Part shown: positions 18,664 through 23,669 of the stretch, piece after piece | How positions within the stretch are numbered: position 1 is the first letter of the stretch | Layout: every line of letters starts with the position of its first letter | Assembly: GCF_000220985.1 (NCBI RefSeq) | Contig: NZ_AFRW01000089.1 | Span: 1-34,620 of the forward strand | From: Nesterenkonia sp. F | GTDB lineage: Bacteria > Actinomycetota > Actinomycetes > Actinomycetales > Micrococcaceae | Length of the DNA stretch: 34,620 nucleotides | Reading direction: 5' to 3' | The notes under the pieces: generated by a model | Told to the model about the DNA's origin: nothing | The model's input: only the letters and a program-made list of their open reading frames with translations | Database searches by the model: none | Program-made: the position numbers and the translations under genes

Positions 18664-19098
18664 TCACCCGCGGGTGGCGGGGCGGAGCAGTCCGCTCAGC
18701 AGGCGGCGCCCGAGGAGCAGGACGGTGAGCACGACGGTGGTGACCATGATGAAGGAGGCCGGTGCGCCGCCCAGTCCCAGCAGCACGCGCAGCGCCATCC
18801 CGCCGGCGACCGTCGTGACGAGGACGAGCAGGCCGTCGGGCCAGAGCCGCGAGGGACGAGCCAGCGGCCAGAGTGTCGCGGAGACGATGATCAGCGCCAG
18901 GAGGAAGGGCGAGGCGGTGGTCAGCACGTCGAGCGCGGCCAGTCCGCTCTCGTGGGTGCGGTTTCCCGCGGCGGCGAAGATCAGCACCAGCACGACGTCG
19001 GCCACCAGGAGCAGCAGACGAGTCGAGACGGCAGATCGCCTCAGGGCACGGCGGGATGAGGGCGTCGTGGACGGGCGTGGTGCGCGGAGCTCGGGCAT
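18664..19098 (-). CDS. DUF3054-type membrane protein
   Basis: 144 residues with four membrane helices (about residues 28-45, 56-75, 85-107 and 112-130). It has the characteristic D in the first helix (LLLVADVVLVLIFAAAGNRTHE) and a PLARPSRLWPDGLLV loop. This fits the DUF3054 family of small actinobacterial membrane proteins of unknown function. I chose ATG 19098, since TATCCT lies seven bases upstream for leaderless initiation; an in-frame start at 19170 would run into the SatD-side control region. Confidence 0.8.
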   Translation of the reverse strand: MPELRAPRPSTTPSSRRALRRSAVSTRLLLLVADVVLVLIFAAAGNRTHESGLAALDVLTTASPFLLALIIVSATLWPLARPSRLWPDGLLVLVTTVAGGMALRVLLGLGGAPASFIMVTTVVLTVLLLGRRLLSGLLRPATRG

Positions 19099-19105
19099 GT
19101 CGGTC

Positions 19106-19111
19106 AGGATA
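19106..19111 (-). promoter_or_regulatory. -10 element for leaderless DUF3054 gene
   Basis: TATCCT on the minus strand, seven bases before the ATG at 19098. The -35 is weak. Confidence 0.45.
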
Positions 19112-19186
19112 GAGTCGTCGACTGGATGCCGTCTCATCATGAGGGTGTATCGCCAGAAACAACCTTTCAAGGGTGTACTACCTGAT

Positions 19187-19204
19187 ACAACGTGTTACCG
19201 TTGT
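19187..19204 (+). promoter_or_regulatory. Inverted repeat just before the SatD-like gene
   Basis: ACAACG-tgttac-CGTTGT, a perfect 6-bp inverted repeat ending three bases before the ATG at 19208. TGTTAC is also repeated with a 9-base period (19193 and 19202), and the region is clearly more AT-rich than its surroundings. The downstream protein carries a helix-turn-helix, so autoregulation through this site is a reasonable guess. Confidence 0.45.
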
Positions 19205-19207
19205 TAC

Positions 19208-19807
19208 ATGTACGTGCTGACCATGGACCAGAAAGGCTCCCGACGCGGGGGAGACCTCGTCGGCGAAGCGCTGCAGACATTCTCCGCCCTCGCCGGGGCC
19301 GGCGTGGCCCGCCCGTTCCAGCGCACCGCCGGCGACGAGATCCAGGCCGTGCTCACTGATGCCGCGTCCGTGGTGGAGGTGATGCTGCACGCAGCCCGGG
19401 ACGGCCGCTGGAGCGCCGGCCTCGGCGTCGGGCCCGTCGAGCAGCCGATGCCGGAGGAGACGCGAGCCGGTCGGGGACCGGCCTTCGAGCATGCGCGCGA
19501 TGCGGTGACACGCGCGAAGCGGGCGCCCGGCGGCGTCGCCTGCACGGCCGAGCACCCCGACGCCGAGCACGTCGAGGCAGTGCTGCAGCTGCTCGCCGAA
19601 CTCGATCAGCGACGCACCGACTCCAGTCAGCAGGTCGGCGAGCTCATCGCCCAGGGGCGGACGCAGACCGAGGTCGCCGATCGACTCGGCATCAGCCAGC
19701 AGGCCGTCTCCCGCGCGCTGGATCGAGGCCTCTGGCACCAGACTCGGCGCGTCGTCGCCCTGGCCGTGCAGATGCTGGAGACGATGCATGAGGAGGTGAC
19801 CGCATGA
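19208..19807 (+). CDS. SatD-like protein with C-terminal helix-turn-helix
   Basis: 199 residues, cytoplasmic. The start MYVLTMDQKGSRRGGDLV resembles SatD-family proteins, in which an Asp is followed by an S-R pair. Further conserved-looking parts are RTAGDEIQAVL (residues 39-49), WSAGLGVGPV and GPAFEHARDAVTRAKR. Laid out this way, D7 and the GDE at 42-44 occupy the places of the two metal-binding sites in nucleotide-cyclase/GGDEF-type palm domains; this comparison is my own reading, not established. Residues about 151-175 (TEVADRLGISQQAVSRAL) form a helix-turn-helix. The stop overlaps the start of a membrane-protein gene (ATGA), giving a two-gene module. SatD was first named from the Streptococcus mutans acid-tolerance locus; its biochemical role is unknown to me. 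Confidence 0.75.
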   Translation: MYVLTMDQKGSRRGGDLVGEALQTFSALAGAGVARPFQRTAGDEIQAVLTDAASVVEVMLHAARDGRWSAGLGVGPVEQPMPEETRAGRGPAFEHARDAVTRAKRAPGGVACTAEHPDAEHVEAVLQLLAELDQRRTDSSQQVGELIAQGRTQTEVADRLGISQQAVSRALDRGLWHQTRRVVALAVQMLETMHEEVTA

Positions 19808-20364
19808 TCGTCCTGACCTTGATGCTCACCGCGGCAGCGGCGGCGCCCGCGGCGCTCTCCATGCTGCCTCAGCATCGTCGGCCGCGCCTGCTGATCAAGA
19901 ATCTCGCCGCCGTCGCCCAGCTGGTCCTCCTGGCCGCCGCTGCTCTCTGCGCGCTGGCCGCCGAGCAGACGGCGACATCGGTGGTCGGACTGGCACTCAC
20001 CGTCCTCATCACGGCGGCGGCCGCCGCCGTGGGAGGCTCCGGAGTCTCGACGGCCGTGCTGGACAGTGCTGCGCGGGAGCACCGCGAAGACCCGGCGGAA
20101 CAGGTGAGCGACCTTCCGCCCGACGATCGCCCCGTGCTCCGCGGGGGAGCGTGGATCGGAGTTCTGGAGCGGCTGGCCGCCGTCGTGACCCTGCTCGCCG
20201 CATGGCCCGAAGGGCTGGCCGTGGTGCTCGCGGTCAAGGGCTTGGCGCGCTACTCGGAGCTGCGGCGGCCGAACGGCGCGGCGGAGCGGTTCATCATCGG
20301 CACCTTCTGCTCCGTGCTCTGGGCTTCGGCCTGCGCCGGGATCGCGATGCTGGTGACGGCGTGA
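19804..20364 (+). CDS. Membrane protein paired with SatD (DUF3307-like C-terminal half)
   Basis: 186 residues with about five hydrophobic helices. The C-terminal half (about 115-185) has the pattern GAWIGVLERLAAVVTLLA, then VLAVKGLARYSELRRP, then AERFIIGTFCSVLWASA. It closely follows the GxWIGxLER, AxKSxxRF and EYxxIGTxxS motifs I associate with DUF3307 proteins beside SatD in Firmicutes and Bacteroidetes. The N-terminal half is a poorly conserved Ala/Leu membrane region. Translation is coupled to the SatD gene by the ATGA overlap, so the two products probably act together at the membrane. No transport or enzymatic motif is seen. Confidence 0.7.
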   Translation: MIVLTLMLTAAAAAPAALSMLPQHRRPRLLIKNLAAVAQLVLLAAAALCALAAEQTATSVVGLALTVLITAAAAAVGGSGVSTAVLDSAAREHREDPAEQVSDLPPDDRPVLRGGAWIGVLERLAAVVTLLAAWPEGLAVVLAVKGLARYSELRRPNGAAERFIIGTFCSVLWASACAGIAMLVTA

Positions 20365-20850
20365 GCGGTGGGCGGCGAGGAGCGCGAGCCCCACATAAAC
20401 CTGACATAACCCTTAGGCGAGTCCGCGAGCCGAGGGAGGAGGAACAGCTGCCCGCAGTGACCTCCCGCGTCGTGGCGGCGCGTGCGTGCTGACGTCACGA
20501 GCCGCTCTGGGGAGGCGGGACCCGTCGGTCAGCATCCCGCCGTCGTCGCATCGTTCACGAGGGAGGCGGCGCCGACTTCGCAGGGCGTCGAGAGCTGTTC
20601 GACGAGAGCCAGTCACCGAGGCGGCGACTCGCGAGTCGTTGAGCGTCCGTCCGGCCACGTGCCGACCAGCCTGACCCGAAGCCTGAAGGCCGGCGGCAGA
20701 TGCCGTGTGCGCGACTGCGTGCCGCTGCAGGGGCGGCCGGACGAGAGCCGGCGCGGCATCGCACATCGATGATCCTCAGGGCCGCATCACGACCCATGGG
20801 GCAACAGCGTCGACCGACGATCATCGGGGGAGGAGGCGTCCAGAACCACA

Positions 20851-20878
20851 AGTTGACATAATGCAGATTATCGGACAA
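20851..20878 (-). other. dif: dif site (XerC/XerD chromosome-dimer resolution site)
   Basis: Read on the minus strand the 28 bases divide into an 11-base XerC arm TTGTCCGATAA, a 6-base centre TCTGCA and an 11-base XerD arm TTATGTCAACT. This is the 11+6+11 architecture of bacterial dif sites. The XerD arm differs from the B. subtilis arm (TTATGTAAACT) by one base, and CCGATAAT with ATTATGTCAA is the form expected in actinobacteria. It lies in a gene-free gap, as dif often does. Genes to the left run mainly rightward and genes to the right mainly leftward, that is, toward dif, as expected at a terminus. Confidence 0.85.
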
Positions 20879-21186
20879 TCACGAGGAGGCTCGGAAAGGG
20901 CCTGCGGCTCGTCGTCAGCCGGCCTCACCGCCGTGAGCACTCCTGCGTGGACAGCCGGCCCGACTGTGCTCTTCCAGGCCGCGACACCGCCGCGCCCCGG
21001 GTGCTTCAGCGCTGTCCGCCCCCTGGCGCCTCGTTCGGCCGGCACTGCGGTTGACTCGGGACGGTCTGGAGGGGCCGGCCGCGGCGACAGGGCGACGCAT
21101 GCAGCCCTGCTGCACGTCGCCGCGGCACCATTCGCATCTGTGACCGCTCCCCGCCGAGCAGCATGTCGCGTCCGCCTCTGCGAGAA

Positions 21187-21198
21187 CAGTTGACATAA
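21187..21198. repeat. Exact 12-bp copy of the dif XerD-arm side
   Basis: AGTTGACATAAT is identical to 20851-20862 and in the same direction, 336 bases away. The rest of the dif sequence is missing here. It may be a relic of Xer-dependent integration or a chance partial match. Confidence 0.55.
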
Positions 21199-21215
21199 TC
21201 GTGGCCGTTGCGCCC

Positions 21216-22130
21216 TCAGCCGTTCCCGTGCCCGGCGGCGCGCAGGTGGTCCTCCAACCGATGCGTCCCGGTGCGTTCGCCCACGCCGTCGCCGGAGAAG
21301 CCGTCCAGGAAGAACTGGGCCAGATCGTGGACCCGAGCCGCCGGCCGCAGAAGCGGCAGCCCTGCGCGCAGCAGCCCGGTCGGCACATCCACGATGCGGG
21401 CCGGCAGATCGCACACGGCGAAGCACAGCTGCAGGATCTCACGCAGCGTGAAGACCTCCGGGCCGCCGACGTCCCAGGCGCGGTGCCGATGTCCGAGCTC
21501 ATCCCGCACCGGATCCTCCGCGTCCGTCGAGGTGAGCTGATCGACCAGGAAATCCGCGAGATCCTGTCCATGGATCGGATTCAGTCGCACCGACCCGTCT
21601 CCGATGCTGAGCGCGACTCCGCGACGGGCCATCGCCAGGAGCTCCTCCATATCCGAGAAGTACCCGCTGGGGTTCACCACTGCCGACGGCACGGGACTGC
21701 GCCGCAGCGCGGCCACGAAGGCACGCTTGGCCCGCACCAGCTGCGAGTGACTGCGCTCGGCGTGCATCACATGCACGTAGCCGAACTGCCTCGCCGACGA
21801 CCGCTCGGCCTCGGCCAGCAGTGCCAGGTTCGCCGCGAAGTCCACATCCCAGGGGTCGGCCTTCTGCCTGGTCACGCCCAGAGCGGAGAGCACCGTCTCC
21901 CCGGGCCGCACGAGCCCGTCGAGTGGTCCGGCGACGATGTCGCATTCGACCCATTCGTCGACCAGCCCCTCCAGCGCCGGCGCGCCATGGGCCCCCGGGC
22001 CGCCGGCGCGGCCGACGTCGCGGACCACAGCACGCACCCGGAATCCCCGTCGATGCAGAGTCCTGACCAGGTGCCGCCCCAGATAGCCGCTCGCGCCCGC
22101 CACCAGCACGTCGTCTCGAGGGTCCGCCAT
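21216..22130 (-). CDS. NAD(P)-binding atypical SDR (NmrA / NDUFA9-like)
   Basis: 304 residues. The N-terminal VLVAGASGYLGRHLVRTLHRRGFRVRAVVRD is the GxxGxxG dinucleotide-binding fold of extended atypical SDRs. VVNPSGYFSDMEELL, NPIHGQDLADFLVDQL and WDVGGPEVFTLREIL match the isomerase/reductase-like members related to complex I subunit NDUFA9. The usual catalytic YxxxK is not present. Substrate unknown. It is divergent from the methyltransferase gene with only 24 bases between the two start codons, and both appear to be leaderless. Confidence 0.85.
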   Translation of the reverse strand: MADPRDDVLVAGASGYLGRHLVRTLHRRGFRVRAVVRDVGRAGGPGAHGAPALEGLVDEWVECDIVAGPLDGLVRPGETVLSALGVTRQKADPWDVDFAANLALLAEAERSSARQFGYVHVMHAERSHSQLVRAKRAFVAALRRSPVPSAVVNPSGYFSDMEELLAMARRGVALSIGDGSVRLNPIHGQDLADFLVDQLTSTDAEDPVRDELGHRHRAWDVGGPEVFTLREILQLCFAVCDLPARIVDVPTGLLRAGLPLLRPAARVHDLAQFFLDGFSGDGVGERTGTHRLEDHLRAAGHGNG

Positions 22131-22138
22131 GGCGTCAG

Positions 22139-22148
22139 ACTATAGGCT
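22139..22148. promoter_or_regulatory. Overlapping divergent -10 elements
   Basis: Plus strand: TAGGCT (22143-22148), six bases before the ATG at 22155. Minus strand: TATAGT (22144-22139), eight bases before the ATG at 22130. The two hexamers share bases 22143-22144, so polymerase could hardly occupy both promoters at once. Each -35 would lie inside the opposite gene. Confidence 0.55.
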
Positions 22149-22154
22149 GGCTCC

Positions 22155-23087
22155 ATGACTGGGGAGATCTCCGAGGCCGCGGGCGCGGATCCATGGCCGG
22201 TGCGCTGCCCGCACTGCGGGCGCGCCCTGCGCGTCGACCGTCGCCCGCCCGACCAGCACGTCGGAAACGACGCCGGGCAGCACGCCGGGCAGCACGCCGG
22301 CCGGCCGACGACGATCCGCGCGCTCTCCTGCGACGGCGGCCACCGGTTCGACGCCGCGCGCCAGGGATACGTCAATCTGCTGGTCGGCCGCGGCAGCTCC
22401 GCCACGCCCGACGACACGGCGATGATCATGGCTCGTGAACGAGTCCAGGACGCCGGGATCCTGCGCAGCGTCACCGAGGCTCTGACGGCGATCGCCGCCC
22501 GGACGACGGCGCCGCGCCAGGTGCTCGACTGCGGCGCCGGCACCGGTCATCATCTCCATGCCCTGCTCGAGGCGCTGCCGGCGGCGTCCGGGATCGCCCT
22601 CGACCTGTCCCCCGCGGGACTCAAGCGTGCCGCCAAGCACCCGCGGACGCTCGCGCTGGCCTGGGACCTCTGGCGCCCTCTGCCGGTGGCCGACGCATCG
22701 ATCGACCTGCTCGTCGACGTCTTCGCACCCCGCAGTCCCGCCGAGTACGCCCGCGTGCTCTCCCCCGGCGGGCGCGCGGTCGTCGTCACGCCGCGCCCCG
22801 GCCACCTGCATGAGCTCGCCGCCCATGGACTGCTCGGCATGCGCGAGGGCAAGCATCGTGAGCTGCTCGCGCGGATGGGCGAGGCGCTGGGCGATCCCGA
22901 GGAGCATCGCCGTATCGGCGAGACGATCGACCTCGACGCCGAGCAGGCGGCGGATCTGATCATGATGGGCCCTGCGGGTCATCACCGTCATCGGGATCAG
23001 GTCCTGCACGATGTGGGCCGCGAAGGCACCCGGAGGGCGACTGTCGACGTCGATGTCACCACCTGGCGACGTCATGCTGGTGACTGA
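22155..23087 (+). CDS. RlmA-like 23S rRNA (guanine-N1) methyltransferase
   Basis: SAM-dependent methyltransferase of 310 residues. A zinc site is formed by C18, C21 (CPHC), C59 and H63 (CDGGH), the order seen in RlmA. HRFDAARQGYVNLL follows as in that family. The SAM motif is VLDCGAGTGHH (about residue 118), with DVFAPR in the place of the catalytic DxFxP loop. RlmA/TlrB enzymes methylate G745 or G748 of 23S rRNA, and some give macrolide or tylosin resistance; which base is modified here is unknown. The segment between the zinc pairs is longer than usual and holds a DAGQHAGQHAGR repeat. Confidence 0.85.
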   Translation: MTGEISEAAGADPWPVRCPHCGRALRVDRRPPDQHVGNDAGQHAGQHAGRPTTIRALSCDGGHRFDAARQGYVNLLVGRGSSATPDDTAMIMARERVQDAGILRSVTEALTAIAARTTAPRQVLDCGAGTGHHLHALLEALPAASGIALDLSPAGLKRAAKHPRTLALAWDLWRPLPVADASIDLLVDVFAPRSPAEYARVLSPGGRAVVVTPRPGHLHELAAHGLLGMREGKHRELLARMGEALGDPEEHRRIGETIDLDAEQAADLIMMGPAGHHRHRDQVLHDVGREGTRRATVDVDVTTWRRHAGD

Positions 23088-23183
23088 TTCTGTCATCTGG
23101 GGCACAATGGGAAGTCACAGCACGTCTGGCCGGACGGCCGATGGCCCGTCCGGCGACTCCGACACGGACGACGAGGGGGCATC

Positions 23184-23669
23184 GTGATCGAGTGGTTCTC
23201 CGAGAACCTCTGGGCCGCCTGGATCGGGCTGACCCTGGTGCTGCTGGTGCTCGAGCTGATGATGCTCGATCTGCTCTTCCTGATGCTCGCCGCCGGATCG
23301 GCCTCGGCGACGACGGTCGCGCTGGCCGGCGGCCCCGGCTGGCTGCAGGTGGTCGTCGGCTCGGCCACCGCGCTGCTGATGCTCGGTGCGGTCCGCCCGG
23401 TGGCCCTGCGGCATCTGCGCCGCACGCCGGAGCACCAGCTGACCAACGTGGACCGGATGGCGGGCATGGAGGCCCACCCGCTTGAGACCGTCACCGAGCA
23501 CGACGGGCTGGCCGAGGTCGACGGCGACACCTGGACCGCACGCACTGTGGCCGGCGCGACGATCGAACCGGGCATGGCCGCCGTCGTCGACTCCGTCGAC
23601 GGAGCGACGGTCTATCTGCGTCCGGCGGCGAGCATCGACTGGCACGACCCCGATGAGAGAGAGGCCTGA
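23184..23669 (+). CDS. NfeD-like membrane protein
   Basis: 161 residues: about three N-terminal helices (LWAAWIGLTLVLLVLELMML; LFLMLAAGSASATTVAL; GWLQVVVGSATALLMLGAV) and a C-terminal OB-fold-like domain (GLAEVDGDTWTARTVAGATIEPGMAAVVDSVDGATVYLRPA). This is the short NfeD type that partners SPFH proteins. The start GTG follows AGGGGG. The SPFH gene begins six bases after its stop, so they form one operon. A weak promoter (GTGACT, 17 bases, CACAAT) may lie around 23081-23108. Confidence 0.88.
   Translation: MIEWFSENLWAAWIGLTLVLLVLELMMLDLLFLMLAAGSASATTVALAGGPGWLQVVVGSATALLMLGAVRPVALRHLRRTPEHQLTNVDRMAGMEAHPLETVTEHDGLAEVDGDTWTARTVAGATIEPGMAAVVDSVDGATVYLRPAASIDWHDPDEREA

Follow-up and report, generated by a model that had tools for sequence, protein, structure and literature searches.

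Introduction

The dif site is where FtsK and the XerC and XerD recombinases act, and it coincides often, not always, with the replication terminus; the same accessible part of that source lists FtsK-orienting motifs that switch at dif as a structural hallmark of the system (PMC13342612). A dif site has been suggested for Frankia alni, CACGCCGATAATGCACATTATGTCAAGT, in the available portion of one report (PMC3025954). XerD has been reported to unload SMC at the Bacillus subtilis terminus (accessible excerpts of PMC12322038, PMC8669397, PMC8523169 and PMC13342612), and dif has been proposed more widely as a site of SMC unloading (excerpt of PMC13342612). RipX, the B. subtilis homologue of XerD, favours the right half-site, according to the accessible text of a further paper (PMC5357621). 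The literature that we searched describes, for B. subtilis, a terminus activity of XerD that is separate from dif recombination.

Here we describe a dif locus in a 34,620-nucleotide stretch of DNA from Nesterenkonia sp. F, referred to as the window. As a dif, the site in the window is ordinary. The unexpected part of the locus is the presence of solo XerD half-sites beside dif.

The chromosomal dif site

The original prediction placed a chromosomal dif with an 11+6+11 layout in the window, and the XerD and XerC arms as first quoted are read there on the minus strand.

20851..20878, minus strand: chromosomal dif, 11+6+11 layout, DNA matches to relatives
20868-20878, read on the minus strand: dif XerC arm, TTGTCCGATAA
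20862-20867, read on the minus strand: dif centre, TCTGCA
20851-20861, read on the minus strand: dif XerD arm, TTATGTCAACT

A degenerate dif pattern allowing up to three mismatches matched 20851-20878 and nothing else in the window, and gave no match in 100 shuffles. A search of the whole genome had been expected to return the 28-mer once; with up to three mismatches, it occurs in one place in the draft assembly (2.81 Mb, 138 contigs, 93% complete). Comparison with the dif sites of related genomes likewise gave agreement: the dif core was matched with up to two mismatches in 28 of 30 Nesterenkonia genomes, and the two genomes of the genus that gave no match have a completeness of 65% and 82%. 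Five relatives have a main contig long enough for dnaA and dif to be compared, and the two are separated by 0.484 (G002), 0.490 (G003), 0.506 (G013), 0.499 (G021) and 0.512 (G023) of its length; the draft under study carries dnaA on another contig (C21). For the relative G017, which is 62% complete and has dnaA in two pieces, the distance is approximately 0.507.

The site shares with actinobacterial dif sites the 11+6+11 layout, the XerD arm TTATGTCAA, a XerC arm with CCGATAA, and its single copy, as well as a position nearly opposite dnaA in relatives and a switch of polar motifs, whereas the outer bases and the centre differ between lineages. Read on the plus strand, the centre is TGCAGA in the window and TGTAGA or TATAGA in most of the Nesterenkonia listed. 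The genome encodes two full-length members of the XerC/XerD family, scoring 315 and 247 bits. The best XerD-family match, at 315 bits, falls below the TIGR02225 cut-off of 329.6, a score that was reached in only 4 of 14 control genomes. Contig C38 of the same genome holds partial matches to one more recombinase.

By sequence, position and polarity, 20851-20878 is almost certainly the chromosomal dif site, an identity supported by the single match in the genome, the dif sites of relatives, the distance from dnaA and the flip in GGGGGAG orientation that is described below. XerC and XerD would bind the arms of this site, and the arrival of FtsK, guided by polar motifs that perhaps include GGGGGAG, would lead to the resolution of chromosome dimers.

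Genome G007 (loci L028 and L058) has a diverged dif-like site and, approximately 1.2 kb further on, a XerC arm beside an N; this second site, rather than the diverged match, may be the main dif of G007. Dif-like sites TGACATAAGATAGATTATCGG are also borne by the further contigs G021:C2, G023:C2 and G018:C31, and these are perhaps plasmid dif sites.

Polarity of GGGGGAG at dif

A repeat in the gap around dif prompted a trial by hand of GGGGGAG and four other words in the relative G002, after which all 7-mers were ranked. GGGGGAG came first, with 103 copies pointing toward dif and 7 pointing away. The E. coli KOPS, GGGNAGGG, differs from this motif; it shows only mild polarity in G002 (51 toward, 28 away) and was rejected, as were GGGAGGA (61/41), GAGGAGG (207/90) and GGGCAGG (76/80).

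In the window, GGGGGAG occurs 13 times on the plus strand and once on the minus strand to the left of dif, and 0 and 6 times, respectively, to the right. The motif count gives these nearest copies:

20826..20832, plus strand: nearest GGGGGAG on the left, pointing toward dif
22760, minus strand: nearest GGGGGAG on the right

Across the 27 dif loci of the window and 26 relatives, G002 not being among them, the counts on the plus and minus strands are 136 and 3 on the left and 3 and 129 on the right; within 500 bp of dif they are 6/0 and 0/2. The same switch is seen in 69 dif loci from 30 other genera of the family (164/1 left, 0/142 right) and in 40 loci from across the class (219/5 left, 6/199 right), with locus L199 counted in both of these sets. 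The weakest polarity by family is that of f33, at 32/3 and 5/18.

KOPS and architecture-imparting sequences, as the accessible parts of two papers present them, likewise point to dif on both arms and flip there (PMC13342612, PMC5993296). GGGGGAG, with its polar orientation and its switch at dif, is perhaps a KOPS candidate, with a hypothetical recognition by FtsK. Searches with blunt words, in a literature from which most subscription journals fall outside, found no report of GGGGGAG as a KOPS. The motif provides a sharp marker with which to locate dif in actinobacterial drafts that have weak GC skew.

Gene content and GC skew around dif

The dif site lies in an 851-bp gap (20365-21215) between the stop codons of two converging genes. 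The genes that bound the gap, and the one that follows on the right, are:

19804..20364, plus strand: gene of unknown family, left bound of the gap, relatives in 2 of 28 loci
21216..22130, minus strand: NAD(P)-binding (SDR/NmrA-like) gene, between dif and rlmA
22155..23087, plus strand: rlmA-like 23S rRNA methyltransferase gene (Pfam Zn_ribbon_RlmA, NCBIfam relatives)

Pfam and NCBIfam gave no match for the left-hand gene, and the SDR gene has no relative among the 28 compared loci. The gap was said to be free of genes. Rfam gave no match in it at gathering scores, and the compared loci contain no relative of any of the 13 open segments (at least 50 amino acids each) that it holds. A non-coding RNA around the gap was rejected as well, with 19000-23500 free of Rfam matches at gathering scores. 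Every match between the DNA of the gap and that of relatives overlaps dif. To the left of dif, the gap contains three 12-mers resembling CGAGGGAGGAGG, at 20431, 20558 and 20825.

Profiles confirm genes elsewhere in the window that are rne-like, proB-like and proA-like, as well as nadD, a helicase of the helY type and, as in ppm, a glycosyltransferase of family 2. Of the gene blocks named at the outset, rne, proA, nadD, helY and ppm are thus backed by profile matches, and obg and rbpA are unconfirmed. The assigned open reading frames, judged without a count, agree with the statement that genes mostly point toward dif; rlmA and a Band_7 gene, both to its right, point the other way. The change in the sign of GC skew expected at dif is seen there, but it is weak. 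Skew is +0.0124 to the left and -0.0176 to the right of dif, with a cumulative maximum at 20,900; an equally high peak arose in 7.3% of block permutations, and 2.8% placed a peak no more than 500 bp from dif. Skew is weak in the relative G002 as well: among 20 sampled stretches, it was positive in 9 of 10 on one arm and negative in only 5 of 10 on the other.

Solo XerD half-sites near dif

Two solo XerD half-sites, neither of them part of the original prediction, flank dif within the window.

21188..21198, plus strand: solo XerD half-site, AGTTGACATAA, 337 bp from the dif XerD arm on the XerC side
20399..20409, plus strand: weaker solo XerD half-site, ACCTGACATAA, 452 bp from dif on the XerD side

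The half-site at 21188 has the same orientation as the dif XerD arm and lies 17 bases past the SDR stop codon. With up to one mismatch, AGTTGACATAAT occurs in two places only in the draft, namely dif and 21188 (as AGTTGACATAA and the T that follows it), against 0.00024 such copies expected per genome under an order-2 Markov model. TGACATAAC occurs in one place in the draft, at 20402, within the weaker half-site; in several relatives, dif starts with ACCTGACATAAT. The half-sites of the window and of two relatives (L055 and L056) form direct repeats 757-789 bp apart with dif between them.

We compared the window with 28 relatives (27 Nesterenkonia and one from another genus), most of them represented by approximately 10 kb on each side of dif. 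These 29 dif loci contain 21 solo copies of the core TGACATAA, all between -496 and +1070, and the fetched stretches contain none beyond 1.1 kb. The Markov model predicts 0.15 copies within 1.1 kb and 1.15 elsewhere for the same loci. At least one solo copy is present in 18 of the 28 Nesterenkonia loci, and 10 of the 28 have none within 1.1 kb; chromosomes that keep solo arms have one or two of them. The solo sites lie mostly 200-600 bp from dif on the XerC side and have no XerC arm; 17 of the 21 are on the XerC side, away from the XerD arm of dif itself, and 18 of the 21 are opposite to dif in orientation. Across 30 whole Nesterenkonia genomes, TTGACATAAY is found in 40 places, of which, as sorted by hand, 13 are the arm of dif itself, 18 lie within 1.1 kb of dif and 9 are elsewhere; the backward control of the motif is found in 11 places in all.

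Helical phasing of the distances between dif and the half-sites was considered and rejected as unconvincing across periods and sets (p from approximately 0.005 to 0.67, the sets being chosen by hand). Solo XerC-type arms, GATTATCGG, occur in four places in three Nesterenkonia loci, including L043 at +91 and L061 at +79 and +112, and once, far from dif, in the outgroup locus L069; these places are too few for solo XerC arms to be taken as a general feature.

Codon usage in rlmA

A protein match to rlmA is found in the dif locus of 15 relatives, and all 15 write the half-site as GGT TAT GTC within the GYVN motif of the protein. From codon use in four neighbouring gene families, these three codons would be expected in approximately 1.65% of cases per genome, and the synonymous positions that flank them differ freely. 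This choice of rare codons points to selection that would act on the DNA itself.

Where rlmA lies farther from dif, the codons read GGA TAC GTC (the window) or GGC TAT GTC (G012 and G018). GGT TAT GTC is retained in G028, in which rlmA is 1.07 kb from dif. Of the four rlmA genes whose displacement exceeds 1.2 kb, three (those of the window, G012 and G018) lack these codons, and that of G019 keeps them approximately 13.5 kb from dif. G026 has a more distant rlmA homologue, with these codons outside the comparison. In the window, the SDR gene separates dif from an rlmA that lacks the codons, and a half-site with a perfect arm stands at +337, within the range of most relatives' rlmA sites (+230 to +489) but in the other orientation. 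The displaced rlmA and the perfect half-site together suggest, from this one case, that nearness to dif outweighs host sequence or orientation.

In other genera, none of the 12 rlmA genes with a readable GYVN motif carries GGT TAT GTC (L112 dropped); two more genes read GHIN, and in the remaining loci the pattern found no motif. The codons are absent from L116, L096 and L117, in which rlmA is approximately 0.8-1.0 kb from dif, and neither L096 nor L117 has any half-site. The dropped locus L112 comes from a record (WNZI01000004.1) whose title is Vibrio cholerae; its rlmA contig resembles Arthrobacter, and it is probably a case of contamination or mislabelling.

Half-sites in other genera

Among 33 named dif loci of other genera, a non-random set that was chosen via rlmA, may overlap the set of other-genus genomes below and has Nesterenkonia L109 dropped, a solo T[GT]ACATAA is present at +246 to +585 in 26 and absent from 7. 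In many of these loci the host gene is one that we take, from its sequence and with no profile search, to be a type III polyketide synthase. In this PKS-like gene the half-site is written in very rare codons, mostly as TTA CTT GAC ATA ACT; multiplied together, the frequencies of TTA, CTT, ATA and ACT give approximately 1e-5 in 20 loci that were chosen for the motif. Matches to the PKS-like protein were found in 31 loci, in 21 of which dif lies 458-519 bp from the position of the half-site. In these Arthrobacter-group genes near dif, TGACATAA is kept in 20 of 21, with one change in L092. Five aligned loci have no dif in their stretch, and their dif may lie outside it; three of these keep TGACATAA (L114, L107 and L087), one has one change (L080) and one has lost it (L118). 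Of the rest of the 31, four have no aligned position and L188 is a remote homologue.

In 70 genomes from other genera of the family, T[GT]ACATAA is found at +150 to +1000 in 17 (10 of 30 genera) and on the left of dif in 2, and it is found nowhere else within 5 kb in the sequence fetched (approximately 1.5 kb per side for 29 loci). Orientation is the same as that of dif in 20 of 21 other-genus sites, and 19 of 21 are on the XerC side.

When 18 of the other-genus sites are aligned on nothing but the 8-mer, they resemble the XerD arm at its remaining positions too, with R at -3 (17/18), S at -2 (18/18), T at -1 (17/18) and Y at +8 (17/18), and show only milder signals beyond the width of a XerD arm (T in 12/18 at -5, C in 11/18 at +18). 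This strongly conserved width equals that of a XerD arm and argues against binding by some other protein with a XerD-like motif, for example a sigma factor or a different tyrosine recombinase. The -35 box has the sequence TTGACA, and TTGACATAA does start with this hexamer; the partial recombinase matches on contig C38 also favour such a protein. However, the site lies within coding sequence in rlmA and in the PKS-like gene, and a promoter reading was rejected because 20200-21400 contains no promoter-like, sigma-70-like pair. We consider binding by another protein unlikely.

The same 18 sites have no XerC arm and no shared flank, features that count against a reading of the half-sites as scars of mobile elements, that is, half att sites left after imperfect excision from dif. 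Mobile elements that integrate at dif exist, and the direct repeats that bracket dif in the window, L055 and L056 would fit them. However, the recurrence of the same codons in the same gene in many species makes the half-sites look maintained rather than left over, and such an origin seems to us very improbable.

Among 40 loci from across the class, the exact 8-mer TGACATAA is present in 7 (including L199 of the same family), always between +404 and +2362 on the XerC side, and solo copies are absent from the other 33. Across the wider class, no general pattern emerged when the XerD arm was varied by lineage. Four of the six loci fetched for family f35 carry the motif +1.56 to +1.94 kb from dif, in a host gene that, as recognised by sequence, presumably has a UvrA-like signature. 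Outside these host genes, the half-site is intergenic.

The absence of exact half-sites from 33 of 40 wider actinobacterial dif loci would fit a reading in which the window holds a plain dif and the nearby half-sites reflect chance or the ordinary conservation of genes with GYVN or LLDIT. The retention of the rlmA codons in G019 and of the motif in PKS-like genes of three of the five loci with no detected dif are also consistent with this explanation. Against it, the motif is confined to the neighbourhood of dif in three nearly separate locus sets, rare codons are used at the motif while neighbouring synonymous sites vary, the hosts differ by lineage and are various genes or intergenic DNA, and the codons are missing from three of the four rlmA genes with a displacement above 1.2 kb. 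Chance or gene conservation is, in our estimation, quite unlikely.

Possible functions of the half-sites

We consider it probable, from these sequence comparisons, that the solo XerD arms near the dif at 20851-20878 are extra docking sites for XerD alone. Both the binding of XerD at the half-sites and the consequence of that binding are inferred; the positions, sequence limits and recurrence of the half-sites are observed. The docking reading is held less firmly because rlmA lacks the codons in L116, L096 and L117 and because three PKS-like genes keep the motif with no detected dif. RipX prefers the right half-site, so a solo XerD arm could hold XerD without recombination. At such an arm recombination would be impossible, and XerD would be held next to dif. 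Docked XerD might form a block that unloads SMC running into the terminus, as XerD is reported to do in B. subtilis. Alternatively, it might serve as a store of XerD and make contact with FtsK that arrives from the XerC side.

Karaboja et al. reportedly described XerD-dependent SMC unloading at the Bacillus subtilis terminus in 2021. The likeness to that system, as far as the accessible accounts describe it, is a XerD at the terminus that acts apart from recombination; by comparison, the half-sites described here are sequence features that mostly lie no more than 1.1 kb from dif.

The plasmid Xer site cer offers a further likeness, in that extra DNA adjoins a Xer core site. The accessory DNA of cer, approximately 180 bp long, binds PepA/ArgR, whereas the extra element here is a XerD arm (accessible portion of PMC5357621). 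This precedent favours a narrower version of the docking reading, in which XerD docks solely to help dif recombination, through supply, synapsis or FtsK contact, and SMC is not unloaded. The short distance to dif and the strong bias to the XerC side (17/21 in the 29-locus set and 19/21 in other genera) also favour this version. The orientation of the half-sites is not conserved, however, and helical phasing of their distances is unconvincing, and we regard a role limited to recombination as somewhat unlikely.

The half-sites have no fixed geometry, since their orientation is opposite to that of dif in 18 of 21 Nesterenkonia sites and the same in 20 of 21 sites from other genera. Neither are they universal: a number of relatives keep them and many do not. 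We tentatively propose that a subset of the Micrococcaceae keeps a second terminus element, consisting of solo half-sites that would dock XerD, be selected even inside genes and be re-created after displacement, as in the window. The role of this second element would most likely be SMC unloading or FtsK reception. Blunt word searches of a literature that leaves most subscription journals outside found no solo XerD half-sites beside an actinobacterial dif. If the proposal is true, a recurrent XerD-only site some hundreds of bases from dif shows itself through the rare codons that it imposes on unrelated genes, and synonymous recoding of a small number of codons, in either rlmA or the PKS-like gene, would be a simple actinobacterial test of SMC unloading versus dimer resolution.

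In five genomes of other genera (G319, G330, G343, G352 and G305), a copy of TTGACATAAC with the same orientation lies approximately 245-285 kb away from dif, and these distant copies possibly belong to a conserved gene or are further XerD sites.
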